Source of the DNA: Bifidobacteriaceae bacterium
GTDB taxonomy: Bacteria; Actinomycetota; Actinomycetes; Actinomycetales; WQXJ01
Direction of reading: 5' to 3'
Length of the DNA stretch: 40,096 nt
NCBI GenBank assembly: GCA_031278075.1
Contig: JAITLE010000039.1
Location: 1-40,096 of the forward strand
The notes under the pieces are model-generated. The model saw only the letters and a list, made by a program, of their open reading frames with translations. It did not search any database and had not been told where the DNA came from. The position numbers were made by a program, and so were the translations under genes. Of this stretch, positions 16,859-38,915 are shown in pieces. The stretch's first letter is position 1. The number at the start of each line of letters is the position of its first letter.

Positions 16859-17552
16859 GCCAGACCGCGCGCTCGATTTCGGGGAGCAACGCCGCGTTCA
16901 TGGGCGGCGTCGCGTCGACCCGGCTGTAGCCCAGGGCGAGCGCACCGAACAGGGCGCCTTTCAAGCCGAGCCGGGGGACGATCGCGTCCGATGCGACAGC
17001 GGCGTCCGCCAAGAAGACGCCCGCCAAGCCGAAGGACGTCGCCGCCAGCCACATGTTCTGCACGGCGGCGCCAACGGCGAAAGCGTCCAAACGGATCGCG
17101 AACTGATCCGCGCCTGGCGCCCGCGCGCCAGACGCCGCAGACGAAAAGGGCTCCAACGACTCCACGACGATGACCAGCGGAACGGCGGCGATCACCGCGG
17201 CCGACGCCGCAACCGTGGAGACGTGCCCGGGGTGGGGCTGACCACTGAGCGGGTCCACGGGGACGAATTCCTCACGCCCGGGCGCCGCCATCATCTGCTC
17301 AGAGATCCAGGCGATGAGCCCCGGATCCCGCACCACGTGGAGGCGCCACGGTTGAGCGTTCTTCGCTGACGGCGCAGCGAGGCCCGCCTGGACGATCTGC
17401 CTGACCACCGAGTTGGGCGGCGTTCGCTCGGTGAAGTCCGCGCGCACGGAGCGGCGGCGCATGATCGTGGCGACGGTGCCGTTCTGTTGGCCGGGCGCTG
17501 GAGCCGCGGCGCCTTCGGAGCCCGGCGGCGGTCCCCCGGCGTGGCCCGTCAA
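16830..17552 (-). CDS. Nitroreductase family FMN oxidoreductase
   Basis: IMRRRSVRADFTERTPPNSVVRQIVQAGLAAPSAKNAQPWRLHVVRD...LDAFAVGAAVQNMWLAATSFGLAGVFL; start uncertain (TTG overlapping the TPR-gene stop, or internal). Confidence 0.85.
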   Translation of the reverse strand: MTGHAGGPPPGSEGAAAPAPGQQNGTVATIMRRRSVRADFTERTPPNSVVRQIVQAGLAAPSAKNAQPWRLHVVRDPGLIAWISEQMMAAPGREEFVPVDPLSGQPHPGHVSTVAASAAVIAAVPLVIVVESLEPFSSAASGARAPGADQFAIRLDAFAVGAAVQNMWLAATSFGLAGVFLADAAVASDAIVPRLGLKGALFGALALGYSRVDATPPMNAALLPEIERAVWHGDSDVDRV

Positions 17553-18322
17553 AGCACCTCGTACGGACGGATGGCCTTGGAGCCCAACTCCATGACCTGG
17601 ACATTGGCTGAGGCGCGCTCGGCTAGGTCGCGGTAGCCCAACTCCTGGGACTCGCGACCCAACGCTTTGGTCTGAGCGATAGCCTCTTCCGGTTCGGCGC
17701 CGGACAGGTACAGTGTCGAAGCCAGGCTCAAGCCCACCTTGACCCTGGTCCGGGCAGAGTTCGCGTCAACCGCGAGGGCCGCCTCAAATGATGCACGGGC
17801 GCCGGCCCAGTCGCCGGCCGCTAGGCGGAAAACACCTTGCTTCTCGCGGAGCTGACGCACCATCGACGTCCAAGACGGCGAGCGGCCCGCCAATGTGATT
17901 CCGCTCGGCCCCACCGCCTCTAGCACCGCTATTTCGCCGACGATCGCCTCGCTCGTGGGCGAGGCCACCATAAGGTCGAACGACTCGGCGTCAGACGTGT
18001 CCGCGGCGAAGCGTGACAAGGCCAAGCCGACAAGGAAGAACCCGATCGACTCGGTCCAGCCGATGGCTGCGGCCCGCGCCAGCCAGCGGGTCCGCCAGGT
18101 GGCCAAACCCTCCCAGTCGTGCAGTTGGGCCGCGGCCAATGCGGCCAGGCGACAGGTCTCCGTGTCCTCCGGAGACGGCGGCCGGGCCTGGATCTCGTCG
18201 AAGTGCTCGCTCGCGAGGTTGAGAGCGCGCGCCGCCGCGGGGTCGTCAGGGCGATACCGCATAGCGTCGATTGCCGCTTGGACTGCGCTGAGGAGCGCCA
18301 CTGCGCCAGGGAATGTGGCCAT
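17549..18322 (-). CDS. TPR-like helical repeat protein
   Basis: REKQGVFRLAAGDWAGARASFEAALAVDANSARTRVKVGLSLASTLYLSGAEPEEAIAQTKALGRE. Confidence 0.6.
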   Translation of the reverse strand: MATFPGAVALLSAVQAAIDAMRYRPDDPAAARALNLASEHFDEIQARPPSPEDTETCRLAALAAAQLHDWEGLATWRTRWLARAAAIGWTESIGFFLVGLALSRFAADTSDAESFDLMVASPTSEAIVGEIAVLEAVGPSGITLAGRSPSWTSMVRQLREKQGVFRLAAGDWAGARASFEAALAVDANSARTRVKVGLSLASTLYLSGAEPEEAIAQTKALGRESQELGYRDLAERASANVQVMELGSKAIRPYEVL

Positions 18323-18611
18323 TGCTCGAACCTATACCCGGAGCCGACCGTGGGGCGAGCGGGCGGCGGTGGTCGCCGCGTTGTTCGGCTCAGTGGAGCG
18401 CCTTGGCACTCAGACGATCACCTGGGATCTCGCCATCACCCCTGACGGCAGGGTCTTGTACTCGACAGACCACACTCTTGTCTTGCTGACGCCGCGATGA
18501 GCCAGCCACTCGGCGCCGCGGGATCTGTTGCGCGCCACGCGGGCTTGGGCAAGACTTATGGACTGTGCGCCAGCGGGGGCTGCGCACGAATCCAAACACC
18601 CAGGAGGACCG

Positions 18612-21434
18612 ATGACGGCCGCTGAAGCGCCCGGCGAGCTTGACAAGCCCACCTTGATTATCAGCCCTCACACGGGTAAGAACCCAGTTGACAGCTTTAG
18701 TGGAGTGCCTCGCATTCTTGTGTGCCCGGACAGCGACACGTACAACCGAGAGCTTTCGAGTTCGCAGGCGAACTCGTCCGTGCTGTTAGTCGATCCCGGT
18801 GAGGATGCCGGCGGCGTGATCGGAGACCTGTTCGGCGCCGTGCTGTACTTGAAGCAAACCAAGGCGAAGCCGCCCAAAGGATCGTGGTTGGATAAGGAGC
18901 GGTGTGAGCGGCCCGTGTGCTGGCTCCCGCAGGGGGCGGATCGCGCCAGCCACGGTTTCGAGTTGGCCGAGGCCTGCCGGTTCTCGGGCATACCGCTGAT
19001 CGTCACCCAAGGCGACAAGCCGACCCGCAGGTTCCCGGAGCGCCCGCATTCATCGACCATTCGGTGGGCCTTCAGGGCTAGTTTGGACAAGCCGGGCGCC
19101 GAGGACATCCGGGCGCGCGGGTTCACCACCCTGATCAAGCAAGGGAAGACGCCCCAGAGTTGCCAGACGAACCTCTTGCTGCGCCTGCTGGGCGACAACG
19201 ACTTCCTGCTGCGCCCAGATCACGAGTCGGCTTGCGCCGATCTGCTCGAGCGGAAGGGTTATCCGCTTGCGGCAGCTGAACTGCGCCGCTTGATCGCGTG
19301 GTGGCTGCAACAGCGCATTTGGCACTACAAGAACTATGTGCCCGAGATGGTGCTCCACGACGACGTCCACTCCGCCGCGGTCGACCGCAACGTCGCCAGC
19401 TTCTGCGAACCGTTCCTGGCCCCAGCGGCCGCACCCGAATCGGCGCCGCTGTCAGCGGAGGACGTGTTCGCGCTCGCCGTCACGGCTTGGCTCCACGACA
19501 TAGGCCACGCCTCGATGACGTACGGCCCGGCCGGTGAGCCTCGCCGCGCCTCCAACGCCTTCGACGTCCGCGAATTCCACGGGATCTTTTCAGCCGACCG
19601 CCTGCTGAGCCCTAAAATCGACGATCGGTCGCTCCACGGTTTGGATGACATAGCTAAGACTCTCCATTACCCCCAACTTCTTGGCAAGGTGGCGGCGCTC
19701 AGTGCCCACCATCAGGGCTGGACTTCTTGCGACGCGCAAGGCGTCCAGAACAAGCCTGACCTTTTCGACGACACGCTGCTGCGACCCGATTACAGCGACC
19801 GCGCCGACACATTCCTGGAGAATGGACCTTTCATCTCGTCCTTCGACACCGACGCGATCCAAATGGCACACCTTGCGGACGCCACCGACGAGGACAAACA
19901 GGCCCACATCGAAGCCTTACACAGACTGCTAGCCATCATCCGACTCGCGGACGCGATGGACGTCGGCTTGCATCGAGCCCCTAATACCACCACCCAGGAC
20001 GCTATACGGACCGATCTGTTCGACGAGTTCCTGAACCAACTTTCCGCGGTGAGCCTAGACGAAACTACCGTCAAAGGATTGAAAGCCGTTATCGACGAAG
20101 TCAAAATGGCGTTCCATGCGACCGGCGGAGAACAGAAGGTCACGCCCCAGTCGCTTGTCGAGCACATCAACCCTCGAATCAAAGCGATGCGGGAAAGGGC
20201 GCCTCGTGAACACCAATCCGAAATTAAGAAGGTCGGGAAGTATGCTCCATACCTATTGAAGCAGGTTTACTATTACGCCGAGCAGGAGCGAATCGCGATG
20301 CTGTCGCCAGTCCCCGTGGAGCCGAGTGCGGACAGCAAAGGGGGGCCGACCTATGCCTTGTGCATATACGTCGTGCCGAACACGGCCAAGAACTCCAACG
20401 AGCCAGACGAAGTGGAAGAACTGGCGCAGAGTTTAGCTCTCCGTGAATGGGGCGTAGAACACGTGCGCCAAGGAAAAGCCGAGGCGGCCGACTCAAAAAA
20501 GGGCGCAATATTGACTTACCTCACGGAGGGTCTGGGATTCCGCCTCGACGCGGAGTCCTTGCCAGTGGAGTTGATTGACCCGTCCGTGATGTGTTGGGTC
20601 CGCCTAGAGTCTAAGCAGCCGCCATCCAGGAAGGCTTCCAAACCCACTCCTATCAGCGCCATCCCGAACGGATTCGGCGAATGGACGGTGTTCGACGGGT
20701 CGGAGTATTCGCCTCACATTGAGGTGGCGGGGGCCAGCATTGCCACGGACCTGGCGCGATCGGCCCTGGCGGCGCTGAGCGAAGACGGCAAGCTCCACAC
20801 CCGCCCGGTTCACGGCGGTCCGAGCACCGCCGAAGAGCTCCCCGGGCTCACTTCGCCGGCCCAGTGCCTGGGTTACTGTCAGCAGGACGAGACGCACTTC
20901 GCGCTCGTTCACGAGAAGAACAGCACTGGGCTGACGTTGTATGCGCGCAATTCGAGCGGCGGAGCCTGGGAGCGCGCGCCTGACGCCCTGTTCAAGAGGA
21001 ACGGTCCTAGCGCTTTGCGGGCTTTCCCGGTCCCTGGTCCTTCCGATGCTGATCGAGACCGCTGGGTCTGCTTGACGAAGGACGGCAGGCTGAAGCACTT
21101 CAGTCCAACACTCAAAGGCGCGGACTTCGCTCCTGGCGGGGAGGGCTGGGAAGCGCCGTATATCGACTTCGACGTGGTTGAACACCAGGGTTCGGTCTGG
21201 TGGGCAGCAATCACGAAGAAAGGCCGGATAGTCGTTCTTAGCACCCAGATGAACGAGGCCCCGCCTGCGACTCAACGGGAGCAGCCAGGCAAGCCGAAGA
21301 TCGAGAAGGGCGTCAAGGCGGAGGCGCTGTGGTGGGCGCCGACGCCGGTCGGCGGCCTCACACTGGTGGTTCAATTCGCTGACGGCACGCGCGCGTTCGC
21401 CCTCGCGAATGACGGAACATGGAGGGACAACTGA
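18612..21434 (+). CDS. HD-domain protein with C-terminal beta-propeller-like region
   Basis: VLHDDVHSAAVDRNV...VTAWLHDIGHASMTYG...REFHGIFSADRLLS...VAALSAHHQGW; AGGAGG upstream of ATG 18612; C-term repeats such as WVCLTKDGRLKHFSP and WWAAITKKGRIVVLS. Confidence 0.8.
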   Translation: MTAAEAPGELDKPTLIISPHTGKNPVDSFSGVPRILVCPDSDTYNRELSSSQANSSVLLVDPGEDAGGVIGDLFGAVLYLKQTKAKPPKGSWLDKERCERPVCWLPQGADRASHGFELAEACRFSGIPLIVTQGDKPTRRFPERPHSSTIRWAFRASLDKPGAEDIRARGFTTLIKQGKTPQSCQTNLLLRLLGDNDFLLRPDHESACADLLERKGYPLAAAELRRLIAWWLQQRIWHYKNYVPEMVLHDDVHSAAVDRNVASFCEPFLAPAAAPESAPLSAEDVFALAVTAWLHDIGHASMTYGPAGEPRRASNAFDVREFHGIFSADRLLSPKIDDRSLHGLDDIAKTLHYPQLLGKVAALSAHHQGWTSCDAQGVQNKPDLFDDTLLRPDYSDRADTFLENGPFISSFDTDAIQMAHLADATDEDKQAHIEALHRLLAIIRLADAMDVGLHRAPNTTTQDAIRTDLFDEFLNQLSAVSLDETTVKGLKAVIDEVKMAFHATGGEQKVTPQSLVEHINPRIKAMRERAPREHQSEIKKVGKYAPYLLKQVYYYAEQERIAMLSPVPVEPSADSKGGPTYALCIYVVPNTAKNSNEPDEVEELAQSLALREWGVEHVRQGKAEAADSKKGAILTYLTEGLGFRLDAESLPVELIDPSVMCWVRLESKQPPSRKASKPTPISAIPNGFGEWTVFDGSEYSPHIEVAGASIATDLARSALAALSEDGKLHTRPVHGGPSTAEELPGLTSPAQCLGYCQQDETHFALVHEKNSTGLTLYARNSSGGAWERAPDALFKRNGPSALRAFPVPGPSDADRDRWVCLTKDGRLKHFSPTLKGADFAPGGEGWEAPYIDFDVVEHQGSVWWAAITKKGRIVVLSTQMNEAPPATQREQPGKPKIEKGVKAEALWWAPTPVGGLTLVVQFADGTRAFALANDGTWRDN

Positions 21435-22597
21435 TGGGTCGCGCCGCCATTCTGATCGGGATTGACCAGTATTCGTTCCTGAGCGAGGACCAGCCCGGGC
21501 CTGCCGAAGCGGCGGAGAAGCTCGCAGAGGCTCTAAGGCGCGCCGACCCTGGGGGCTGGGGACCGACGGTGAAAACCGTGCCGGCCGAGTGCGGCCCGGT
21601 GAGCGCTGAGGAGCTCAACGAATCCGTCGCCGATGGGCTGTCGGGTTTGGAAGACAGTGATGAGCTGCTGTTCTATTTCGCCGGGTTCGCCTTCAACAGG
21701 GGACACGACCTGCTCCTGGCGGCTTCAGATCACCGCCCCTATCAGCTATCCGGCAGCGAGTTGCGGCTCTCGTGGCTGCTCGACCAGGTGCGCGCGCGGA
21801 ATTTGAAGAATGCGACCATCATCCTGGACTGCTTCGGCGGAGCGGCAGTCCAGGCGATGAACATCCCACGCGGCACGGTGGTGTTGGCCAACACCCAGGC
21901 CGGTTACGGTTGGCCGAGGCAAGCCCTTTCCAACGCCTTGGCGGCGGGGCTCGACGGGCCCCGGGGAACGAAGAAGGGCCAGGCCCGCGCGTGGGACCAG
22001 TCCGGGCAGGTCACCACCCTGTCCTGGTTCATGAGCGCCATCAGCGCGCTGGCGACCGACGACAACTGGGAGCCGATCGTCCAAGGTTCGCTCAGCGGGG
22101 CGGCGACCGTTGGCTGGGTCGAGATCCTCCAACGCGCCGAGATGCTCCGGTTGCCCAAGTTGTTCCCCCAGCGCGAGGATGGGAGCCACACCGCCACCCT
22201 GTCTCCTGAAATGGAATGGCCACACGGGATCGGCGTCGACCAAATACGGAAGACGCTGAAGTGGGGCGACGACCCGAAGGTGGAAGCCGCCATCGCCGCG
22301 GTCGAAGCCAAAGGCAAGGAGTTCGGGTTCCACAGCCGCCCGCTCGGTTATAGCGCAGAAGACCGCCACGCGCCCGAATTCGAGCCCGAACAGGATATGG
22401 AACTCATCAAGAAGCTCCGCGACGCTGGACTGCTCGAATCGATCGAACCGTATAGCGACCTGTTCTGGTCGTGTCTGTCTCACGGCACGGCGAAGCTCAA
22501 CGACAGCGGCGTCGCGTTGTGGAAAATAGCTGAGGCTGAGGCGAAGCACGAGCAGGCGGCTCCCGCCGATCAGGCCGTCGGCGACGCCTCAGCGTGA
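21434..22597 (+). CDS. Caspase-fold (peptidase C14-like) protein, probably catalytically inactive
   Basis: MGRAAILIGIDQYSF...DELLFYFAGFAFNRGHDLLLAASD...NATIILDCFGGAAVQ; caspase scaffold, but the YFxGH His and DCCxxG Cys positions read F; TGATG overlap with HD gene stop. Confidence 0.7.
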   Translation: MGRAAILIGIDQYSFLSEDQPGPAEAAEKLAEALRRADPGGWGPTVKTVPAECGPVSAEELNESVADGLSGLEDSDELLFYFAGFAFNRGHDLLLAASDHRPYQLSGSELRLSWLLDQVRARNLKNATIILDCFGGAAVQAMNIPRGTVVLANTQAGYGWPRQALSNALAAGLDGPRGTKKGQARAWDQSGQVTTLSWFMSAISALATDDNWEPIVQGSLSGAATVGWVEILQRAEMLRLPKLFPQREDGSHTATLSPEMEWPHGIGVDQIRKTLKWGDDPKVEAAIAAVEAKGKEFGFHSRPLGYSAEDRHAPEFEPEQDMELIKKLRDAGLLESIEPYSDLFWSCLSHGTAKLNDSGVALWKIAEAEAKHEQAAPADQAVGDASA

Positions 22598-23913
22598 AGG
22601 GTGACTTCGAGCCCTTCGTCGATCGCCGCTCGCACGCCGGCGCCGCTCGCCTCCGGCGGGATCTCCCGCAGAGCCTCAGCTAGCTTTCCGCCCAACTCAC
22701 GCTCGATGAAGTACTCGACGTCGCGACCACCCGACTGAAGCGGGGCACGATTCGCGAGGTCGGCGACGGCATCGGGCGCTATCCGATCCAGGAGCAGGCC
22801 GTAGGACTCGACAATCCGCTGCACGGTCAAAACGATCAACTGGGCTGTGACCGCCGGCGAGAGCGGTTTGAAGACGAGAACGCGGCCCAAGCGGCCGACG
22901 ATCTCCGGCGGGTATCCGTGGTCGCGCAGGAACCGGCGGAGCCGCTGATCCGAAGCGTCGGCCAGGGGCTGGACCGCGGCGGCGTCCTTATTGGATGTGA
23001 ACAAGAGGATCGCCTGCCGCGCGTCGATTTCGCGCGCTTGTCCACCGATGCGACCCGCGTCCATCAAGTTCATGATGGAACGCCATAGCTGCGGATGGGC
23101 CTTGTCCATCTCGTCGAGCAGGATCACCGTCTTGGGATTGTTGCGCAAAGCCGACGCGAGATCGTGACCGTCGTCGTAACCGATATATCCCGGAGGCGCG
23201 CCGAACAGGCGCGAGACGCTGTGCCGCTCGCTGAATTCACTCATGTCGAGGCGCTCGTATGACCACTGGGCGCCGCTGGTCTCAGTGAGGTGTTCGGCGA
23301 GTTGCTCCGCCGCGAGTGTCTTGCCCGTCCCGGTCGCCCCGATCAAGAGCGCAGAAGCGGGACGGCGTGGATATGGCTTCGCCAAATGGTGCGCCGCCAA
23401 CTCGACGAGGCCGTTGATCGCGGCGTCCTGCCCCAGCACCTGGGCCGAGAGAACCTGCCCGAGTTCAGCGGGGGTCGGCGCCGGCTTCGATTGGATCTCG
23501 ACCTGCTCCAGTTCGGTCACCTGCTCGACAGGCAAGCGCCGGACCGGTGGGCGCTTCGGGGCAGACCGCCCGGGGCGCGCCTGCCGCCCGGCCGACGCGC
23601 GCGGTTCCCCTCGCGCCTGGCTGGGCGCGCCGAGTTTCTGGCGCAGCCACGCGACGCAATCCCCGAAGGTCTCGAACCGGCGGGTGCCGGTGGCGACCCA
23701 TTCAGCGATCTCAGGGTCCTCAGGACCGGTGAATTCTATCCCGCGGCGAATATGCAACAACGTCTCGTCGCCGCTGGTTTCGATGCCGATGTCGGCGTGA
23801 TCCGGCAGACAGCCGTCCGGCAGCGGGTGACGCGGGTAGACGACGCACGCCTCCCTGGACCGACGTTCGAGGGTGGCGATGGTGTCCCGGCTGGCAGTTG
23901 TGAGATTGGCCAC
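22570..23913 (-). CDS. ClpA/ClpB-like AAA+ ATPase (single AAA module)
   Basis: SALLIGATGTGKTLAAEQLAEHL...LDMSEFSERHSVSRLFGAPPGYIGYDDG...KTVILLDEMDKAHPQLWRSIMNLMDAGRI; GTG start at 23913. Confidence 0.88.
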   Translation of the reverse strand: MANLTTASRDTIATLERRSREACVVYPRHPLPDGCLPDHADIGIETSGDETLLHIRRGIEFTGPEDPEIAEWVATGTRRFETFGDCVAWLRQKLGAPSQARGEPRASAGRQARPGRSAPKRPPVRRLPVEQVTELEQVEIQSKPAPTPAELGQVLSAQVLGQDAAINGLVELAAHHLAKPYPRRPASALLIGATGTGKTLAAEQLAEHLTETSGAQWSYERLDMSEFSERHSVSRLFGAPPGYIGYDDGHDLASALRNNPKTVILLDEMDKAHPQLWRSIMNLMDAGRIGGQAREIDARQAILLFTSNKDAAAVQPLADASDQRLRRFLRDHGYPPEIVGRLGRVLVFKPLSPAVTAQLIVLTVQRIVESYGLLLDRIAPDAVADLANRAPLQSGGRDVEYFIERELGGKLAEALREIPPEASGAGVRAAIDEGLEVTLHAEASPTA

Positions 23914-24033: not shown

Positions 24034-25743
24034 TCAAGCCGCGAGCCTGATGACTCGTTCCGCGACCGACGCGCGTCTGGCCTCGCCATAGACCCGGGTC
24101 AAGATCCGAGTCTCGGCGAAGGTTCCGATTTGGTCCGTGAGGTCACCGGTCCCGCCGCAGTCCGGGCAGGCTCCGCCGGGCGATCCGGGGCCGTCGGGCG
24201 TGGGCCTGGTCCACAGCGTCTCGTCCATCACGCAGGAACCGTCCCGGACGGCATCGAGCCGCGTGAAAGCCGGCAGCGGACTGTCCGGGTCGAGGCGTGT
24301 CAGATCGAGGTTCCGATCCGCGAGCCGCTCCATCCATCCCCGATACCGGATCGTCGCCGGGTGGTCTGGCTGCGCGAGCGGGTTGAGCGCGTGCAGCAAG
24401 GCCAGGGTCACGACCTGCTTCGACTCGTTGACCCTGTCGGTCGCGAGGATCGGCGTGCCGTCGGAGGTGACGTCGTTGACGTACCGGTCCTGCAGGTAGG
24501 CACGGTAACGGCTGGATTGCGCGCAGCGGATGCAAGCCTCGGTCAGGCCGGGAGCGGCGAAGGCCAGCTCAACGCCGCGGCCTTCCGCATAGACGTTGGC
24601 GGCTAAGGTCGGCACGCCGAAGTGCAGACCGAGACGTTGGACGCGGTCCTGTGCGGCGAAGTTGTCGGTGAACGCGCCCAGCAGCGTCAACGCTGGTATT
24701 GCCGCCGGGCCGGCCGGCAACGGTTCCCGCAGCAGCCGGTGGAAGCCGATGTCGTCGATGGCGTCGTCCTTGGCTTGTACCGTCCACACATGGCAGTTGG
24801 GATTGAGGCGGGTGAGCCGGCGGGCCAGCGCGTCGCATTTGGCGATGCCGATGTCCAGCGGATCGGCGTCTTGGGTGCCGATGTTCTTCGGTTCGACCCT
24901 GTCGGGATCGATCAGCACGAACTGGCCCGTGCCCATCCGCGCCATCTTCTCCAGGTAGCCCGCCGAGCCGCCCACGCCGATGGCGACCACCCGAGTCGAG
25001 GTCATCACTCGCGGGTCGTAGGCGCTGCGCACACGTTCCAGGTACGGGTTGGGGCGGGGACGCTCGTGGAGGTGGTCTGGAGCTAAGACGATCACGGGCG
25101 CGTCGAGGACCGCCACGCCGTCGCCATGCCGGCCCGCGCGCGAGCGACGGTTTCTCCTCCCAGTTCCGGATCGGACGGCCACGAAGCCGTTGATGAGGAA
25201 TTCACTCGCGTCCGGCACGGTCCTGACGATGGGCATGGCCATGCGGTCGAGCTTCGGCACGGCGGCCAGGATGCGTTCAGCGTAAACTCGGTCCCCGCCA
25301 GAAGGGCTGGTGGCGGCGCCGGGGTGGCTGTGGACAAACCCCATGAAATCGATTCCTTGGGGATCCCATTCCTCACGCAGCAAACGATTGATCACTTGGA
25401 CGTCGGGCGTGTAGGTGACGCTGGTCACCGCGGCGCTCCGGTCGAGGTGAACATGCGTGATCAGACCCAGCTTCCGGTTTCCGCCGAGGACGGCGCCGGT
25501 CTCCGCCCGAAGCCGGCCGATGCTCCGGCCGATGGCCTCGTGCACGGGGCGTGTCATCGTGAGACTCATGCGCTCCGAGAGCTGTTCTGGGACGAGACGG
25601 GTGACCCGTCCGGTTGTGACCGACCCTTGTTGGCCGGGGATGAAGTCCGCACCCTCGACGCGTTGCGCCGGTCGGATCCGGCCGCCTTTGAACCACCTGA
25701 TGATTTGGCAATCAGGGTCTCTTGGGCGGGAATGGCTGATCAT
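24034..25743 (-). CDS. JAB/MPN (DUB-like) - ThiF/E1-like adenylyltransferase fusion
   Basis: JAB: TGAVLGG...IDFMGFVHSHPGAATSPSGGDR; E1: VVAIGVGGSAGYLEKMARMGTGQFVLIDPDRVEPKNIGTQ...DIGIAKCDALARRLTRLNPNCHVW; CPDCGG near C-terminus; AGGAGA SD. Confidence 0.88.
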   Translation of the reverse strand: MISHSRPRDPDCQIIRWFKGGRIRPAQRVEGADFIPGQQGSVTTGRVTRLVPEQLSERMSLTMTRPVHEAIGRSIGRLRAETGAVLGGNRKLGLITHVHLDRSAAVTSVTYTPDVQVINRLLREEWDPQGIDFMGFVHSHPGAATSPSGGDRVYAERILAAVPKLDRMAMPIVRTVPDASEFLINGFVAVRSGTGRRNRRSRAGRHGDGVAVLDAPVIVLAPDHLHERPRPNPYLERVRSAYDPRVMTSTRVVAIGVGGSAGYLEKMARMGTGQFVLIDPDRVEPKNIGTQDADPLDIGIAKCDALARRLTRLNPNCHVWTVQAKDDAIDDIGFHRLLREPLPAGPAAIPALTLLGAFTDNFAAQDRVQRLGLHFGVPTLAANVYAEGRGVELAFAAPGLTEACIRCAQSSRYRAYLQDRYVNDVTSDGTPILATDRVNESKQVVTLALLHALNPLAQPDHPATIRYRGWMERLADRNLDLTRLDPDSPLPAFTRLDAVRDGSCVMDETLWTRPTPDGPGSPGGACPDCGGTGDLTDQIGTFAETRILTRVYGEARRASVAERVIRLAA

Positions 25744-25786: not shown

Positions 25787-26137
25787 CTAGAACCACGGGC
25801 CGGGTCGGGGCCTACCGGGTGGTGGCTCGAACTTCCCGGTGGCGATGTAGTTTTCCGTGCAGTCGGCCCAGAGCGCTGCGACTGCTTGGGCGTCTGAGAG
25901 GGTCTTGATGGTGTTGTCCCAGCAGATGTACGGGCGTGAGCCGATTCCGAAACGGTGGGTTTGGACGCTGCCCGAGGGTCTTCCTCCGTAGCTCGGCGAG
26001 GCGGTGATGTAGATCTTCCAGCCCGACACCGTGTGTTCGAATGTGAACCAGTAGCCGCGCCTGGACGGCCAGGCCTGGTAAAGGCGGTCGTGCCAGGTTC
26101 CGATCTGACGGGCGTATTGCTCAGTTGCAGATGCCAT
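25787..26137 (-). CDS. Small E2/UBC-like protein, paralog 1 (tentative)
   Basis: RRGYWFTFEHTVSGWKIYITASPSYGGRPSGSVQTHRFGIGSRPYICWDNTIKTLSDAQAVAALWADCTENYIATGKF; paralogous to two neighbours; GAGGAG SD. Confidence 0.6.
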   Translation of the reverse strand: MASATEQYARQIGTWHDRLYQAWPSRRGYWFTFEHTVSGWKIYITASPSYGGRPSGSVQTHRFGIGSRPYICWDNTIKTLSDAQAVAALWADCTENYIATGKFEPPPGRPRPGPWF

Positions 26138-26225
26138 TGTGGCGCTCCTCTTGCGGGTTGGCGCGCTGGCGCCGGCCGCTCACGCGAAACCGACGCCAGC
26201 GCCTTGGTGTGGCGGCATGCTGCGG

Positions 26226-26360
26226 TCAGCAGCGATGCGTCCGCCACTTGTAGCTGTCAGCCGCGAACCAGTGCTGACACTTCGGGCACTTGACCACGCC
26301 CCCGTGGAACGTCCCGGCGGGGATCTCCTCCGGACGAACCGGGTTCTTGTCGGCTTTCAT
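26226..26360 (-). CDS. 44-aa zinc-ribbon-like miniprotein (absent from the supplied ORF track)
   Basis: Translated by hand: MKADKNPVRPEEIPAGTFHGGVVKCPKCQHWFAADSYKWRTHRC*; CPKC...HRC metal-ligand pattern; SD AAAGGAACCACTATG. Confidence 0.7.
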   Translation of the reverse strand: MKADKNPVRPEEIPAGTFHGGVVKCPKCQHWFAADSYKWRTHRC

Positions 26361-26424
26361 AGTGGTTCCTTTCTTGTTGGTGTTGATGGTTGGGGCAGCG
26401 GAGGCCTTCGACCTCCATCACCTA

Positions 26425-26442
26425 GCGCGCAAAATGCATCCG
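26425..26442 (-). promoter_or_regulatory. Motif copy C: CGGATGCATTTTGCGCGC, upstream of zinc-ribbon gene
   Basis: Matches motif copies at 30495, 30567 and 37922. Confidence 0.5.
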
Positions 26443-26461
26443 GACTCGGCTGCCGCCTTGG

Positions 26462-27262
26462 TCAGGCCACATATTCGCGGTAGAGGGCGACGCCGTATTG
26501 GACGCCGTTGGCGATGGCGAGCAGCCACGCCGCCGCCCACAGCAGCGCCGGGGCGCTGCCGCTCAGCGCCGTGAAGCCGAGGACCGCGCCCACGCCGGCT
26601 AAGGCCAGCACCAGGCCCGGGCCCCAGGGCTCTTCGGCCGCCAGCACCCCGGCCACCGTGGCGGCCGCGCCAGCGGCCGCCATCCACATGAAGTCCCAAA
26701 AACCGAAGCCGTTGTGCATGCGACAAACCCAGATGAGACCGAAGACCAGCAAAGCGGCGAGGCTGGCGCCCCACCCGACAAACCCCAGATCGCGCCGCCG
26801 GGCGGCCATCGGTCGCGCCGGACCAGCTCGCTCAGCTAGCCCAGCTCGCTCAGCTAGCCCAGCTAGCCCGGCTGGCCCGACTGCCGTGCGGGGCGCGCCG
26901 GTCCCCAACATGGACCGGTCGGTCACCGGCGGCCTCCCTGCGGCAGGCCTGAAGTTCCCTGTGGCGATGTAGTTCTCCGTCGAGTCGGCCCACAACGCCG
27001 CGACTGATTGAGCGGCCGAGACGGTGCGCAGCGGCGTGGTCCAGCAGACATATGGCCTGCCGCCAACACCCAACCGGTGGGTGTCCAAGCCGCCGGACGC
27101 CCTGCCGCGGTAATCCGGCGAATTGTCGATGTAGACGCGCCAGGAACGGTCGATGTACTGGAAAGTGAACGAATAGTCGCGGCGCGTCGGGTGCGCCCGA
27201 TACGAGACACGAATTCGGCCGCGCCGGCGGGCTTCGGCCTCCGGCATGGATCTTTCGGGCAT
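26462..27262 (-). CDS. E2/UBC-like paralog 2 fused to a C-terminal multi-TM region
   Basis: RRDYSFTFQYIDRSWRVYIDNSPDYRGRASGGLDTHRLGVGGRPYVCWTTPLRTVSAAQSVAALWADSTENYIATGNF, then low-complexity linker and hydrophobic helices; start ATG at 27262 after GAGGAGGAGAC. Confidence 0.6.
   Translation of the reverse strand: MPERSMPEAEARRRGRIRVSYRAHPTRRDYSFTFQYIDRSWRVYIDNSPDYRGRASGGLDTHRLGVGGRPYVCWTTPLRTVSAAQSVAALWADSTENYIATGNFRPAAGRPPVTDRSMLGTGAPRTAVGPAGLAGLAERAGLAERAGPARPMAARRRDLGFVGWGASLAALLVFGLIWVCRMHNGFGFWDFMWMAAAGAAATVAGVLAAEEPWGPGLVLALAGVGAVLGFTALSGSAPALLWAAAWLLAIANGVQYGVALYREYVA
26823..26875 (-). repeat. 18-bp tandem repeat encoding GLAERA linker
   Basis: CCAGCTCGCTCAGCTAGC repeated about twice plus a degenerate third copy; encodes GLAGLAERAGLAERAGPA. 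Confidence 0.75.
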
Positions 27263-27273
27263 GTCTCCTCCTC

Positions 27274-27666
27274 TCACAGACTCGGATAGGCGCGGAACCC
27301 GTTGAGGACGGAGCGGTCCACCACCTGCGGCCGTCCCGGCGCAGGCGCGAATTGGCGGCTGTCGCGGAAGTTCTCGACACAGTCCGCCCACATCGCCGCC
27401 ACGGCCTGAGCCTCGGACAGCGTCGGCACTGGTGTGGCGTGGCTGGCCGCCCCGGGTGGGTTGTAGCAGATGAATTGGCGCCCGCCTCCGCCCGCGAGCA
27501 GATGAATGAATCCATTGACGGGCGGCGGGTTATTGACGTACACCCGCCACCCGCCACCTTCGAATTCGAAGGTGAACGAGTAGTCGCGTTTGGTTGGCCA
27601 GGCGCGATACCAGACCTTCCGCAGCACACGGACCTGGCGGGCCTGGGCCTCGGTGATAGATGCCAT
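27274..27666 (-). CDS. Small E2/UBC-like protein, paralog 3 (tentative)
   Basis: KRDYSFTFEFEGGGWRVYVNNPPPVNGFIHLLAGGGGRQFICYNPPG...PTLSEAQAVAAMWADCVENF; AAAGGAGACACCAAATG. Confidence 0.6.
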   Translation of the reverse strand: MASITEAQARQVRVLRKVWYRAWPTKRDYSFTFEFEGGGWRVYVNNPPPVNGFIHLLAGGGGRQFICYNPPGAASHATPVPTLSEAQAVAAMWADCVENFRDSRQFAPAPGRPQVVDRSVLNGFRAYPSL

Positions 27667-30494: not shown

Positions 30495-30511
30495 CACGCA
30501 AGAGGCATCCG
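30495..30511 (-). promoter_or_regulatory. Motif copy A: CGGATGCCTCTTGCGTG
   Basis: Upstream of HerA-like gene; runs into an inverted repeat GTGCGT-N6-ACGCAC (30480-30497). Confidence 0.5.
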
Positions 30512-30566
30512 AAGCCCCGGGGCGGGGGCTGAGCGTCCTCGACCGCCCACCCGTTCGTGGTTGTCT

Positions 30567-30583
30567 CACGCAAGACGCATCCG
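30567..30583 (-). promoter_or_regulatory. Motif copy B: CGGATGCGTCTTGCGTG
   Basis: 16/17 identical to copy A, 72 bp away, 13 nt from the RNAP start. Confidence 0.5.
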
Positions 30584-30595
30584 TTAGCATGAAGC

Positions 30596-33500
30596 GTGCC
30601 CAGGACCTCCCCCGCAGGGACCGAGTCGGCCGAACACCCATCTCCACTCACAGGCGCCCAATGCCGCCAACGATTGGCCGATGCCGTCGCCGCCCTGACC
30701 GCTCGGCGGATCGGCCAGGAGGTCAGCGCGGTCGCCGGGGACCTCGAGCCGCCGTATTGGCAGCCAACCGAGTCCTCGTGGGCGTGGTTGGCGCCGGTCG
30801 GCATCACTCTCAGAGCAGCGGGAGACGCGGCGACCGCGCGTCTCGACTGGCCGGTCGCCTGGGATCCCGACCGCGCGGTCGCCTGCCCAGTCGCGCCAGA
30901 CAGGGATCTCGCGTCGCCCGGACGGCACCGCGGCTGGTATATCGGACGAGCGCTAGCAGTCGGCTACGGCGTGCGGCTCCAAGAGGGACTGCATTTCATC
31001 CCGCGTCAAACCGCTCGGGGAGACTGGACGGTCGGCATCGTCCTCGCGCCAAGACTGGGGCCCGAGGTTTTCGGGCCCTTGGACAAGGATCTTCCGGGGA
31101 ACGGCAGGACCACCTGGTGGAGGCTGTCGCAAGCGGTTCTCGGAGAACTACCCGGCCGCTATGTGCCGCCAGACTTAGTCGAGACCATGCTCGCCGGTTT
31201 GGGCCTCAGCGGGCTCATCGAGACCTACGGCCCGGAGGGTCTTAGTCAAGCCCGCGCCGAAGTTGAGGAGGCGCTGCGTCGCAGACGCCAAGAGGTCGCC
31301 GCCAATCCCACATCCGAGCCCGGGCGGACCGCGGCGTCCCGCAACCGGCTGTTCGGCCCCGACGAGGTGATGGCTGAGTTGGTGTGCCGCTGCGTGCGCA
31401 GACTCACAACCAGCACCGCGCGCAACGCTGTCATCCGAAAGCAACTCGACGACATGGCCAGCAAGCTAGGTTCGTATTTGCCGGACGGCACAGCCATCGA
31501 AGGCGGTCACACCGCGGGCGCGATCGCGCTGCGAAATCTTGAGCGAGGCAAGGGCGCCATCGCTTCGGTGATCACCCCAGTCGGGATCGGGACCACGTTG
31601 GCCAGGACCGAGGAATCGGCCAGGACGTGCTTCGTCGGCTTCCGCGGCCTGGGGCGGATCCGCGGCCGCGCCGACCTGCGCGACCTCGACACAGGGTGGC
31701 GCGGCACGCTGTGTCCCGTGCAGACGCCAGAGTCGACGGACACCGGATTGGTCCGATTCACCGCCGTCGGCGCCAGAGCCGACGCGCCACCCAACTCAGA
31801 ATGGGCCGACCTGTCCGCGAGCGCGGCGCTGATCCCGTTCGTCAACCACGACGACCCGGCGCGAGCGTCCATCGGCTCGAAGAACCTGAAACAGGCCGTG
31901 CCCGTCAACGGCTGCGAACCACCGCTGGTGGCGACGGGTTGGGAGAAGATCCTGGGCCTAGCCGAAGGCGTGGCAGCAGCGGTCGCGGACGGCGAGGTGA
32001 CCGAGGTCGGGCCCGATCATGTTGTCGTCCGCACCCAGCGAGGCGTGGAGTCGCGGGTCGCGTTCGGCGCTCCCGCGGCGGCTCGCTCCGGAATCGACAA
32101 CTCCTGGTTCGTCAGCGTAAAAGTCGGGGACGAGGTGCGCAGGGGCCAGATCCTCGCCCACGCGCCCGAGGTGCGCCTGACACCGGAATCCGAAGAAGCC
32201 GAGCTGTGCCTCGGTGTCAACGCCCTGGTGGCGCTCACTCCCTGGCGCGGCCTGAACTACGAGGACGGCATCGTCGTCAGCGAATCGTTCGGCCGCCGGA
32301 TGACATCCACCCATCTGGTGCGCATCGACCAGACGAAAGACCCCGGCGATCCGGTCACCTGGCTGGTCGCCGCGCCACCCGGGCGCGTCGGCCGGGCCGA
32401 CCAAGGGACGCCTGTCACACGAGGCCAAGTGCTGGCGCAGATCGAGCGCGCGGATCGCACGCAAGTGATCTCCCCAATCACCGGCGAGTTGGTCTCCGCC
32501 TTCCTCGACCGGCGGCGCGGCACAGTGGCCGCGATCATCCGCGTGGAACGCCCCCTCGCGGTCGGCGACAAGCTGACCAACCGCCACCAGGGCAAAGGCG
32601 TCGTCAGCGCGATCCTGCCGGACCAAGACATGCCCCGGCTGCCGGACGGAACGCCCATCGAAATGATCCTGAACCCGGTCGGAGTGCTGAGGCGGCTCAA
32701 CATCGGCCAACTCTGGGAGATGCACGTCGGTTTGGAACGGCGACTCACCAAACAGGGCCCCATCAGCGTCGGCCGTGTGGTGGCTGATCCGGACGGCCTG
32801 GCCGCATCGCTCGCGAACCTGGAAGCGCCCGGTGGGCGGATGCGCCTCACCCTGGCCGACGGCTCTCCGATCGGCGGCGAGGCCGGCGTGGCGGTGGGCC
32901 CGCAATACATCATCAAGCTCAACCACCTAGCGTCCGCGAAACTCAGCGCCTGCGGCGCGCAGCCGCCAGTCGCGCCGATCACCGGGCAACCGTCCCAACG
33001 CCGCAGGTTCCACGCCGGGCACGTCGAGGGTGCGGCGCAACGCCTCGGCGAGATGGAGATCTGGGCGCTTGAAGCCGCTGGCGCCACGGCCGTCCTAGCC
33101 GACGCCCTCCAAACCCGGTCCGTCCCGCCTCAATGGGCGCGCGGCCGGCCCCGTGCGTCGCTGCGCAGCGTCCAAGCGCATTTGGCGGTCGCGGGGATCG
33201 ATCTGGTGGCCAACCAAGACGGCCCGCGACCCCTGGCCAACCTCATGGCGAGCGAGATCGAGAGTTTGACGACCCAGTGGCGACAAGAGCCAGAACCCAA
33301 CCTCGAAATGTCCGGCCACCCCGGAACCGCCGAGGCCGAGACTGTTCAATGGAGCATCCCACTGCCGGAGCCGATGCGGCACCCGTGGCGCACGAAGCTC
33401 GTTGAGCCGCCACCCATCAACAGCGTTCCCGTCCTGCCGCAGGCTTATCGCGTGCCCATCGGGCAACGGATCATCGGACTGAACCGCCACTACGAGGAGC

Positions 33501-35254
33501 TGGCGAAAGCGCTCGCCGAACACGCGTCGAAATCCCCGACGGCGTGGGCGCGCGCGCGACGAGCCGTCACAGCGATCATGGGAGAGCCCGGCAAAGCCGC
33601 GTCGGACAGCATCTGGGCCAGACTGGCGGGCAAGCGCGGCCTGCTGCGCCGTCACCTGTTGGGGCAGGCGGTGAGCCGCTCCGGACGGTCGGTCATCGTG
33701 CCGAACCCAGACATCAGTCCGGACCAAGTCGGCCTGCCGCACTCGCTGGCGCAGACCCTGGGAATCGGCGGTCTCGAACTTGACGACGATGTGGTGATCG
33801 TCAACCGCCAGCCATCACTGCACCCGTACAACATGGTCGCGCTACGCGCGATCCTCGTCGACGGCGACGCGATCCACTTGCATCCGCTGCCGCTCGGCGG
33901 CCTGGCGGGAGACTTCGACGGCGACACTGTCGCGGTGCACCGGCCGGCCAGCGCGGCAGCGCGCCGGGAAGCCTGGGCGAAGCTCTCGCCCGCCGCCCGC
34001 CTGCGTTCCTCGGCGAACGGCGCCGTCCTGGCGAAGATGGACCTCGACATAGCCCTCGGCCTCCACCTGGCCACACGCGACGGCCGCGCGCCTTTGCCGA
34101 ACTGGCCGGACGGGATCGGACGGCGTCCCCTGAACGCGCAGAACCTGGCGACAGCTGTGAGCGAACTGGTTTCCGGGGCCGAGGACGAAGCCGCCGCGCT
34201 GCGGGCCCTCGCCGCGCTGGAGCGAGCAGGCCTGCAAGCGGCCGTCGGTTGGAGCGTCGGCGCGGTGGAGCTGCTCGCCACCCGGCGCGAACTGTCCGCC
34301 ACGGGCCAACCGGGGTGGTTGGCCGCCGCGATCGGCGATCCGCGGGCGGCGGCGGCGCTTGGTCCGTTGGCGGACGCCGCGGCCGCTGGCGTCGCCGGTG
34401 GCGAGAAGGCCCTCACCCAGCTGCTCTGGTCCCGCGGCGAGTTGGAAGGGCATGTCACGGGCTGTTATCTGACCGGCTTGACCAGCGACGACTACTTCGC
34501 GGCCGCGCGGCTCGCCCTGGCTGAGTTGGCCCACAAGAAACTGACCACACCCCACGCCGGGGCGCTCACCAAGACGCTCGTGGAGATCGCGGACGCGGTG
34601 ATCATCGCGGAGGAGCGTTGCGGCACGCCCGATTCCGTCCGGTCGCCCCTGACCTGCGGCGCCACGGACGGCCTCTGCCAGGCCTGCTACGGCGCGGACC
34701 CGGCGACCTGCGCGCCGCCCGCTCTTGGGCGCCGCGTGGGGGTGCTCGCCGCCACGCTGATCGGCGAGCGCTCCACACAAGCGGCGATGCGAACCTTTCA
34801 CCACGGCGGCGGGGCCGGCACGGCGGTCGGCAACGTCCTCACCGAGCTGCGCGCGGTGTTCGGGCAGGGCCGCTCCACGGCCGCGTTCAGCGCTGACGGG
34901 TCACCGCTGAGCCTTATGGAATTCCTCAAGGCGCAACCGAATTTGGACGATGCCGTGCAGGTCGCCTCAGCGCTCGAACCAGCAGTCCTGCACGCCGTGA
35001 ACCAGCTGGGGAGCGTCGACCGGGTCCATGTGCAGGTGGTGTTGCGTCAGCTAGTCGACACCTTCCGCCAGCTCGACAGTTTGCGCGAAGGCGCGCCACG
35101 CGGGCAGACGAGCCTCGCGGCGTGCGCCCAGCGGGTGGGACGGTCGCGGTTCGAGGTGGCGACCGCCCGAGGGAACCTGAGCTGGCTGTTCCCAGGGGAC
35201 GCAGAGCGCGTCGGCGGTTTCAGAACCAGGCTCGCGGTCGGGGACCCGCGATGA
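30596..35254 (+). CDS. Single-chain beta-beta' (RpoB-RpoC fused, minimal) DNA-dependent RNA polymerase
   Basis: Beta-like: [112 protein letters not shown]; beta'-like: [112 protein letters not shown]. Confidence 0.95.
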   Translation: [1552 protein letters not shown]

Positions 35255-36163: not shown

Positions 36164-37783
36164 ATGAATCGCTGCCTGATCGTGGGCGCTGTGCCGCAAG
36201 CTGTGGTCAGCTTGGTGGAGCAGCACGGCTACACGGTGAGCCGGGCCAAGCCTGACGACGATGTGCGGACCGACGGCACTCACATGATTGTCCACGTGCC
36301 TAAGGACGCCGCAGGATCCCTAAGCCGGCTGCGGGCATGGCTCGACGAGGCTGAGGAAGCAGGTCTGCGCGTCGGCCTGACCAGCGCGGCGGGGATGTCG
36401 AGCGACGTCTCGCGCCTGCTGTTCCATCTCAGCCCGCATGTGCAGCAGCTGCTCAACGAACAGACAGAAGCGGTCGCCGACGCTGTCGAGAAACTGCTCG
36501 CCAAGGACGCCTATGACGAACACGAGAAGGACGATGACGTGAAGCTGGGTCGGGGTTTCAACTGGACCGACGACCCCGGCGAGTATCGTGCGCAACGCCA
36601 GCTCTCGTTGCGGAGCGAGACGATGGGCACGTTCCTGAAGCAGCTGCGCGACGCCGTCGCGGCGATGCAGGCGCCGTTCCCTGAGGCGGCGCGGAGGTCG
36701 GGCCGCACTCCCCCGTGGGATCCCAGCGGCGCGTTGACGAAGCGCGACAGCCTGCCCACGTCCTCGCCATCCCTGCGCGACGTCTACCGGCTGCACGAGT
36801 CAAAGGCCGCCCGTGGCCTGCTGCGTCCCGGCGGTGCGCGCGATGGCCGACCGGACACTTGGAAGGTCCCGAAACTGCTGGTCAGTGGGGAGTCCGGCGC
36901 GGGCAAGACCCTGGTCGCGGAACTCGTCACCGACGCGATCGCGTACGAACTGAACCAGGCGGCGGAGACTTTCCCGTACCGGATCATCAACTGCCCGGCC
37001 CTGACGGCGGCCAATCTGAACCACGAGCTGTTCGGCGCAGCCGGAGGCATGTTCAGCGACGTGGTAGACCCGGTGGTCGGGTCGCTGGCCCAGGCGGCTT
37101 ACGGCGTCGCCTTCCTTGACGAGATCGGCGACCTGGAACAACCCGCCCAGCGCGGCCTGTTGGTCTATTTCGAGGACGGAATGATCCGTCCCTCTGGGAT
37201 CGAGCCGTTCCCGGGGTTCGTCCGGATCATCGCCGCCACCAACCGGGACATTCCGCTGATGATCAATCGCCAGCAGTTCCGCAACGACCTGTACGCTCGT
37301 TTTGAGCTCCGGATCGAGATCCCGCCCTTGCGGGCCCGGGAGCCCACCGAATTGGAACATTTGATCCACTTCGTGGCCATCAACCCTGCATGTAACTCCG
37401 GCCGTGCTGTGTCTCACATCAGCCGGAACGCCCTCACCAACTTGTCGAAAAGGGAGTACCGGAACGGGAACTTCCGCGAGTTGGAGACTGTTGTCCACAC
37501 GGCGATCGCGAACGCCCGGGAACGTGGCTCCAAGTGCATCCGCACCAGGGACCTGATCGATCCGGAGGAGCCTCGAGCCGTTCTCGACAGCGAGTCAAAT
37601 GTGATCGAGATCTCGACGCCGCTGGCCGGGCCGACGGTCGATGTGGTCGGCGCCAAGGACATTCAGCGTGCCGCCGCCTATGCTCGAGCGCCGGTGCTGC
37701 GCCATGAGGGCACGGGCGTCGAGTACGTCATCACGCCGAACGCGGTGTACCGCCACAAGGGCGGCAATGGCGCCAAACCGTGA
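36164..37783 (+). CDS. bEBP/sigma54-activator-like AAA+ ATPase lacking a GAFTGA loop
   Basis: KLLVSGESGAGKTLVAELVTDAI...INCPALTAANLNHELFGAAGGMFSDVVDPVVGSLAQAAYGVAFLDEIGDLEQPAQRGLLVYFEDGMIRPSG...RIIAATNRDI...RNDLYARFELRIEIPPLRAREPTELEHLI...GNFRELETVVHTAI. Confidence 0.85.
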   Translation: MNRCLIVGAVPQAVVSLVEQHGYTVSRAKPDDDVRTDGTHMIVHVPKDAAGSLSRLRAWLDEAEEAGLRVGLTSAAGMSSDVSRLLFHLSPHVQQLLNEQTEAVADAVEKLLAKDAYDEHEKDDDVKLGRGFNWTDDPGEYRAQRQLSLRSETMGTFLKQLRDAVAAMQAPFPEAARRSGRTPPWDPSGALTKRDSLPTSSPSLRDVYRLHESKAARGLLRPGGARDGRPDTWKVPKLLVSGESGAGKTLVAELVTDAIAYELNQAAETFPYRIINCPALTAANLNHELFGAAGGMFSDVVDPVVGSLAQAAYGVAFLDEIGDLEQPAQRGLLVYFEDGMIRPSGIEPFPGFVRIIAATNRDIPLMINRQQFRNDLYARFELRIEIPPLRAREPTELEHLIHFVAINPACNSGRAVSHISRNALTNLSKREYRNGNFRELETVVHTAIANARERGSKCIRTRDLIDPEEPRAVLDSESNVIEISTPLAGPTVDVVGAKDIQRAAAYARAPVLRHEGTGVEYVITPNAVYRHKGGNGAKP

Positions 37784-37921: not shown

Positions 37922-37940
37922 CGGATGAACTTTGCGCGCG
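37922..37940 (+). promoter_or_regulatory. Motif copy D: CGGATGAACTTTGCGCGCG, upstream of lipoprotein gene
   Basis: 16/18 match to copy C; oriented toward gene at 38031. Confidence 0.5.
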
Positions 37941-38030: not shown

Positions 38031-38915
38031 ATGAAACATCATGTCCGGGTCGCCGCCGCGGCGGCGACCGCCATCATTGCGACCACGTCCGTCACCGGCT
38101 GCGGCGCCATCGACGCAGCGCTCTCAGAAGGATCTCGCGCGGCCGCCGCCGTCTACTCCAAGGATCTCTATCTGGAGCACGCCGACCCCGTCCACGTCGG
38201 ATTCAGTCCCGACCCGAGCGGCTCGTTGTCGCTCACGAAGGGCGACATGCTTTTCGCGGAGTGGATCCAGCAAGAGTTGGCTGACGCGATCGCCAACCGG
38301 CTCCCGCCCGCGCCGCCGGACTACGCCGCCGGCGCCGCAGGCATCCCCGAGATTCACCTGCTTTATCTGCCGGTCGGTGACGCGTCCGGCGAGTGGCGCG
38401 GCGACAAGTCCTCCGTCTCGGTGGTCCTCCCAGGCGTGCCTCGCCTCTTGCCCGAACCACAGCCCGCCACCGAGGACGACGTCCCCGGGCCGAACGGGAA
38501 AGGCGCGGCTTGGCTCGAGGCCAAAGCCGCCTATCTCGCAGCTCACGACGCGGCGGCTCAGGGCGCGGCGACCGCGGCGCAGACCATCGCGAAGTTCCCT
38601 CTCGAGGGCCAAGGATCCGACATCTTCGGGTCCATCATGCGGCTAGCGGAACGCCTCCCCGCCGGGGCGACAATCCTGTGTCTCGGCGACCTGCAAGACA
38701 CCGAGGATTCCGCCGCCACCCGCGATCTCGCCGGCTATGAGGTGATCGCCGTTCAAGCTTGCGTCGGCGACTCCACGGAAGAATGCGCTGACGCGGCGAC
38801 GAATTTCACGGATTTCGTCGAGTCTGCGGGTGGGACGGCTCCGCTGATATCCGGACACGAGGCCGCGCGCCAAATCATTGACAGCATCATTGGCCCGACA
38901 GTTGAAGGAGCGTGA
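38031..38915 (+). CDS. Predicted lipoprotein, unknown function
   Basis: MKHHVRVAAAAATAIIATTSVTGCGAID signal peptide and lipobox; AGGAG SD. Confidence 0.75.
   Translation: MKHHVRVAAAAATAIIATTSVTGCGAIDAALSEGSRAAAAVYSKDLYLEHADPVHVGFSPDPSGSLSLTKGDMLFAEWIQQELADAIANRLPPAPPDYAAGAAGIPEIHLLYLPVGDASGEWRGDKSSVSVVLPGVPRLLPEPQPATEDDVPGPNGKGAAWLEAKAAYLAAHDAAAQGAATAAQTIAKFPLEGQGSDIFGSIMRLAERLPAGATILCLGDLQDTEDSAATRDLAGYEVIAVQACVGDSTEECADAATNFTDFVESAGGTAPLISGHEAARQIIDSIIGPTVEGA

Follow-up and report, generated by a model that had tools for sequence, protein, structure and literature searches.

The window (the whole stretch of DNA that was analysed, 40,096 nt) carries a gene for a fused, shortened beta-beta' RNA polymerase (RNAP), followed on the same strand by genes for a small protein, here named Y, and for an AAA+ ATPase. 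The same order of RNAP, Y and ATPase on one strand, with a member of a protein family named X nearby on the opposite strand, is found at all three loci in which the polymerase was detected: the window, in the host genome (G000); L014, in a Propionibacteriaceae metagenome-assembled genome (MAG; G449); and L124, in genome G874. In the two intact loci (window and L014), RNAP and Y share an ATGA that contains the stop codon of the former and the start codon of the latter. Coordinates of these genes, of their neighbors, and of the promoter-like sites are given in Table 1.

Table 1 Features of the polymerase locus, ordered by position in the window. Sites and genes are given with the strand on which they are read.
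Feature	Position	Strand	Remarks
AAA+ (Cdc48/AAA_2-type) ATPase	22570..23913	-	64% identical in L014 genome
JAB-ThiF (deubiquitinase-E1-like) fusion	24034..25743	-	kept in all three loci
X family, copy 3	25787..26137	-	
Zinc-ribbon-like peptide, 44 aa	26226..26360	-	
Promoter-like site CGGATGCATTTTGCG	26428..26442	-	upstream of zinc-ribbon/X/E1-JAB genes; site also on L014-genome ortholog
X family, copy 2	26462..27262	-	hydrophobic C-terminal segments; L014 ortholog directly adjoins RNAP gene
X family, copy 1	27274..27666	-	
DUF5663 protein, 143 aa	27703..28134	-	
HerA/TrwB-like DNA-translocase-type ATPase, 763 aa	28160..30451	-	presumed target gene
Promoter-like site CGGATGCCTCTTGCG	30497..30511	-	45 nt upstream of HerA-like gene; site 38 nt upstream of L014-genome ortholog
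Second promoter-like site CGGATGCGTCTTGCG	30569..30583	-	upstream of HerA-like gene
Fused minimal beta-beta' RNA polymerase	30596..35254	+	1552 aa; GTG start; TGA stop overlapping next ATG (ATGA)
Y, sigma-54-like factor, 299 aa	35251..36150	+	helix and acidic region, beta hairpin, long helix, TP.G...L.FF motif, C-terminal helices
Sigma-54-activator-type AAA+ ATPase	36164..37783	+	Walker A GESGAGKT, Walker B FLDEIGD, R-finger region
Promoter-like site CGGATGAACTTTGCG, one mismatch	37922..37936	+	upstream of lipoprotein gene
Predicted lipoprotein (MKHHVRV...TGCG signal)	38031..38915	+	downstream of site 37922

The three X copies stand in tandem (25787-27666; conserved ...RPYICW... and an invariant cysteine) beside the JAB-E1 fusion; a likeness of X to E2 proteins was seen by eye only, was not supported by profiles, and has been dropped. 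In the L014 genome, the ortholog of the zinc-ribbon peptide (L147:14214-14426) contains a repeated GEEIPAGTFHGG unit ahead of the zinc ribbon; the peptide is possibly a substrate of the JAB/E1 pair. Conflict-type genes occupy positions 5635-22597 (TIR, ATP-grasp, STAND-pentapeptide, radical SAM, nitroreductase, HD-CE, and caspase-like), and STAND, caspase-like, HD, ATP-grasp, and radical-SAM proteins are neighbors common to the window and the L014 genome. Genes for a Hen1 methyltransferase and Pnkp RNA repair (1297-5431) lie about 25 kb from the RtcR-related activator described below. Together, the shared neighbors and the presumed target genes (HerA-like ATPase, JAB-E1, X, AAA+, NYN nuclease, and lipoproteins) look like a conflict or defense island; none of the known anti-phage models covers the RNAP or Y.

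An earlier note on this DNA had described one chain of 1552 codons at 30596-35254 with beta signatures followed by beta' signatures, and this description holds: the frame is open throughout without internal stop, and the predicted product is a colinear, shortened bacterial beta-beta' RNAP. All motif positions given there are exact, that is GDKLTNRHQGKG from 32564, DFDGD at 33911, and MRTFHHGG at 34787 (part of GERSTQAAMRTFHHGGG), and the zinc site (CGT...C...CQACYG) is present. The proposed check against Rpb1/Rpb2 profiles gave Pfam matches above cut-off to Rpb2_6 (4e-35), Rpb1_2 (1.4e-19), and Rpb1_5 (8.1e-13); NCBIfam models of fused rpoBC matched at 2.5e-77, and beta and beta' subunits in PDB at 3.5e-55 and about 2e-42, respectively. 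Judged by these scores, homology to RNAP is far above chance level.

The features expected of a member of this enzyme family (DFDGD triad, the two beta lysines in GDK...KG, bridge helix/trigger loop) are all present. Alignment with canonical beta and beta' indicates that the active site (GDK..NRHQGKG and DFDGD) is retained together with the bridge helix, the trigger loop, and the second zinc site. The flap consists of a core without tip region, and the coiled coil of the clamp is reduced in length; lost are the N-terminal zinc finger of beta', most of the clamp, the beta' barrel helical insert, and the jaw region. The two beta barrel motifs are separated by about 88 residues, which include the shortened flap. 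Since the alignment shows shortening of the flap tip and of much of the clamp, the usual sigma-70 contacts (flap tip and clamp helices) are inferred to be largely absent or reduced. Active-site motifs are conserved in the RNAP of all three loci, and the trigger loop reads MRTFHHGG in the window, MKAFQGGG in L014, and MKVFHGGG in L124. With these residues intact, the enzyme is apparently catalytically competent, an inference for which no activity data exist. An AlphaFold model of residues 330-1445 was unusable (pLDDT 39.3), and the presence of paired double-psi beta-barrels rests on sequence homology only. In the L014 polymerase (L014:9962-15124), but not in the window copy, a YgjP-like zinc metallopeptidase domain (PF01863, 1.7e-15) is inserted close to the C-terminus. 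In a tree, the fused pair does not group with the actinobacterial RNAPs, but its branch is very long (about 7 changes per site), so that the position is unreliable and no exact origin is claimed.

The view that this is an extra, divergent polymerase and not the housekeeping enzyme is borne out. The host has separate canonical genes on another contig of the same genome (C190), rpoB passing its cut-off with rpoC adjacent, and no full-length match to the fused RNAP was obtained in the nine genomes of the same genus that were searched; the fused RNAP is therefore regarded as an accessory second polymerase. A scan of 85,462 species (one genome each) returned one full-length relative, at L014 (54% identity). 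L124 was found by a profile search with the neighboring ATPase in the family of the L014 MAG. Its RNAP frame (L124:11470-16640) is interrupted at several points, whereas the frames of Y, X, and the E1-like gene are intact. The 20-kb stretch contains 10 Ns, which points to poor sequence, although decay remains possible. At the thresholds used, no further members turned up in samples from the phylum (397 genomes, the sole match being the window's own genome), the order (396 genomes), and the order to which G874 belongs (397 genomes), and the system is thus considered rare. Searches of plasmid and phage records and IMG/VR gave no full-length relatives; where there were matches at all, they were to housekeeping RNAPs or to split RNAPs of phages.

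The third gene of the operon is predicted to encode an NtrC/RtcR-type, sigma-54-activator-type AAA+ ATPase. Its product matches PF00158 (Sigma54_activat) at 9.2e-28 with 97.5 bits against a cut-off of 20.2, and the best PADLOC model is an RtcR-type activator (5e-39). The GAFTGA loop is replaced at the same place of the alignment by GMFSDV in the window and GMFNDI in L014. No helix-turn-helix (HTH) family of Pfam or NCBIfam was matched that would represent a C-terminal Fis-type HTH; such a domain is also missing from some known sigma-54 activators.

Y resembled the DNA-binding half of sigma-54 by eye before formal tests were made. With one or two Y sequences, the comparison with RpoN was not significant (two-sequence profile, P 0.06). 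The third Y sequence was found later and served as an independent test: the three-member profile aligned with a profile of 7 RpoN sequences (hhalign) at a score of 41.8 (P 2.4e-5), in the register that had been proposed beforehand, and the controls reached 22.5 (best of 1000 column shuffles) and 12.8 (reversed profile). It should be kept in mind that statistical support for the link appears only once this third sequence is added. Searched against 177,635 PDB sequences, the Y profile had a single match at E<=10, RpoN 5ui5 (E 0.17), which spans the long helix and the TP.G...L..F motif of Y in the same register as the RpoN profile comparison. No Pfam domain, RpoN included, was recognized in Y even at E<=10, and Y is named sigma-54-like, not RpoN, because of this failed test. 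The homology seen in profile comparison concerns the C-terminal half of RpoN. Most of the RpoN core-binding domain is missing, as 299 aa leave no room for it, and the helix and acidic stretch resembling region I were seen by eye only, so that Y does not qualify by sigma-54 region I or a full core-binding domain. An AlphaFold model of Y was unusable. Three weak fragments found in a search for Y relatives in 394 genomes of the class had no shared neighbors and were taken as chance. As far as profiles can tell, homology of Y to sigma-54 is strongly supported, and the Y family looks like a minimal, divergent sigma-54. Sigma-54 has been reported missing from Actinobacteria (PMC3162934); the Pfam RpoN DNA-binding domain was found neither in G000 nor in G449 (G874 was outside this search).

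A repeated element upstream of the HerA-like gene was noticed first and generalized to YGGATGCnnnYTGCG. The resulting directional motif, YGGATGCnnnYTGCGT, occurs at 15 sites over the three loci, mostly 38-95 nt ahead of a start codon and directed at the gene; the T after TGCG, which was outside the search pattern, is present in 13/15. The motif is non-palindromic and has a constant orientation with respect to genes. Its arrangement, GG-N9-GC with TTGC/CTGC, corresponds to the -24/-12 element of sigma-54 minus one base; it does not meet GG-N10-GC and is otherwise similar. Exact matches in the whole genome fall within the RNAP region in 3/4 (G000), 5/5 (G449), and 6/7 (G874) cases; four other genomes had 0, 2, 1, and 0 matches, and the reversed pattern 0 to 4 per genome. 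Such clustering would be expected with probabilities of at most about 1e-5 under a uniform model, the region sizes for G449 and G874 having been chosen after the matches were seen. A gap of three bases gave 14 matches, versus 3 for eight other gap lengths combined. Orthologous genes carry the motif in different genomes: the HerA-like and zinc-ribbon genes in the window and the L014 genome, and the NYN-domain gene in the L014 genome and L124 (G874). The sites are conserved while their flanks are free to vary. One match (G000:C214) does not precede a clear gene and was treated as chance. In none of the three loci does a motif point towards the RNAP operon. A possible host-type leaderless promoter could be formed by TTGTCT-N18-TAGCAT (30561-30590), just before the GTG at 30596; this is an inference, and a consensus scan did not flag the element.

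With a probability that we put at roughly 0.7, the operon is a self-contained sigma-54-type transcription apparatus (core, sigma, activator, and promoters) for local genes, its activity being untested. The fused chain would be the core polymerase; Y would place it on YGGATGC-N3-YTGCGT promoters, with the GG/GC element bound in the closed state; and the AAA+ ATPase would act as a dedicated activator, opening the promoter complex by ATP hydrolysis upon a signal that is unidentified. Targets would lie in the same accessory locus, namely the HerA-like ATPase, the zinc-ribbon/X/JAB-E1 cluster, the NYN nuclease, and lipoproteins. The first molecules of the operon's own products would probably be made by the host polymerase, since the operon carries no motif site in its own direction. 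The purpose would be expression independent of the host polymerase, for example during phage attack or for a mobile element. Established from the sequences are the RNAP homology, the gene order with its overlaps, the sigma-54-activator-type AAA+ domain, and the motif with its clustering; recruitment of the fused RNAP to the motif by Y, the need for the ATPase and ATP, and the host-independent purpose are inferred without activity, binding, or transcription data, and that purpose is the weakest step of the proposal. The mostly missing core-binding domain of Y, the altered GAFTGA loop, and the spacing of 9 instead of 10 were counted against it, as were the lack of any Pfam match to Y, the dependence of the RpoN link on the third Y sequence, the broken RNAP frame in L124, and the possibility that another regulator reads the motif. 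A broader formulation is also considered probable, with slightly less assurance: an orthogonal sigma-54-type system that has a one-chain core, a sigma, an AAA+ activator, and promoters of its own, forms an accessory cassette in actinobacteria otherwise without sigma-54, and serves for expressing ubiquitin-like-conjugation and nucleic-acid-handling genes independently of the host polymerase.

Other readings of the locus were weighed. The fused RNAP may use a sigma-70-type factor of the host, or none, with Y an unrelated accessory protein; the motif, which by itself does not identify its reader, could then be the site of another local regulator. Y has no recognized Pfam domain and the AAA+ protein no GAFTGA, which leaves room for this reading, but we think it unlikely: the parts of the enzyme that sigma-70 would contact are inferred to be reduced, RpoN is the only PDB match of Y and the profile score is far above the shuffles, an ATPase of the sigma-54-activator type is encoded next to Y, and the non-palindromic motif has a fixed direction to genes and a -24/-12-like layout. 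The chances are somewhat poorer still that Y, the ATPase, and the motif serve the host RNAP and that the fused enzyme is otherwise employed (RNA-templated synthesis, priming, abortive or signaling RNA). Co-conservation of the three genes, with the RNAP first and joined to Y by the ATGA overlap, speaks against such a division of tasks, as does the loss from Y of most of the domain that binds a normal core; it remains on the list as sigma-54 systems are generally known to use the host core otherwise, and as there are no data on activity or template of the fused RNAP. That the gene is an ordinary accessory or phage-derived relic, decaying and without present transcription function, is very improbable in spite of its rarity (only the window's own genome among 397 of the phylum) and the broken frame in L124, given frames that are open over their full length in two genomes (54% identity), active-site motifs conserved in all three loci, promoter sites conserved between free flanks, and no relative in the phage and viral collections searched.

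The sigma-54-type apparatus is the preferred reading; it appears to give an accessory locus a transcription machine of its own. Most of the interest lies in the co-encoded sigma-54-like protein, AAA+ activator, and promoter motif, which are absent from the earlier note. If it is correct, the system would reveal which portions of RNAP and sigma-54 are sufficient for promoter opening driven by ATP, provide a small reconstitutable model of the sigma-54 mechanism, bear on the evolution of sigma-54 and of two-barrel polymerases, and be of use for orthogonal expression; the bacterium would gain a means of expressing the accessory locus when the host polymerase is occupied, blocked, or shut off. Single-chain RNAPs (YonO, NCgl1702-like, and the crAss-like fusion) and sigma-54 systems are already known separately; in the open-licence literature, no description was found of an accessory RNAP that has a sigma-54-like factor, an activator, and a class of promoters to itself.

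Among known systems, bacterial RNAP, including the rpoB-rpoC fusions of Helicobacter and Wolbachia (PRK09603/PRK14844), shares with the window RNAP the beta-then-beta' colinearity, active-site motifs, bridge helix, trigger loop, and second zinc site. The fusion models are about 2800-2900 aa long, compared with 1552 aa; the flap tip, beta' N-terminal zinc finger, most of the clamp, the beta' barrel helical insert, and the jaw of bacterial beta/beta' are shortened or lost in the window enzyme, which unlike the Helicobacter and Wolbachia fusions is an extra and not a housekeeping RNAP. YonO and NCgl1702-like RNAPs have in common with it a single chain with two barrels and an accessory setting. 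YonO transcribes the late genes of its prophage, its promoter sequence and possible extra factors having been left open (PMC5467207), and shares few residues with cellular RNAP, whereas the window protein is clearly bacterial-like with strong matches to cellular profiles. The NCgl1702/YonO class has no flap (SBHM) insert in the beta barrel (PMC7824862); the window RNAP keeps this insert in shortened form and in this respect falls outside the class. The kinship with the Corynebacterium NCgl1702 type that had been suggested earlier is accordingly unsupported, the window protein keeping both the shortened flap and full bacterial beta/beta' colinearity; this comparison was based on features from the literature and did not include the NCgl1702 sequence itself. 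In crAss-like phages, a fused beta-beta' RNAP occurs outside the housekeeping enzyme (PMC7481178), but it is too divergent for cellular profiles, unlike the window RNAP. The phage loci Carin-5, YerA41, and Arash have split or other RNAP layouts and no gene order in common with the window locus; in Salmonella phage Arash (L113:4264-8841), a chain of 1525 aa comprises beta and N-terminal beta' and ends soon after DYDGD.

To our knowledge, sigma-54 transcription is known only as that of an alternative factor on the housekeeping polymerase. Common to sigma-54 (RpoN) with its bEBPs (PspF, NtrC, RtcR) and to the window system are the AAA+ activator domain above Pfam cut-off, the sigma-54-like DNA-binding half, and a -24/-12-type promoter; the window system differs from them in its putative own core polymerase, truncated sigma, GMFSDV for GAFTGA, and GG-N9-GC, and it sits in actinobacteria, which are reported to be without sigma-54.
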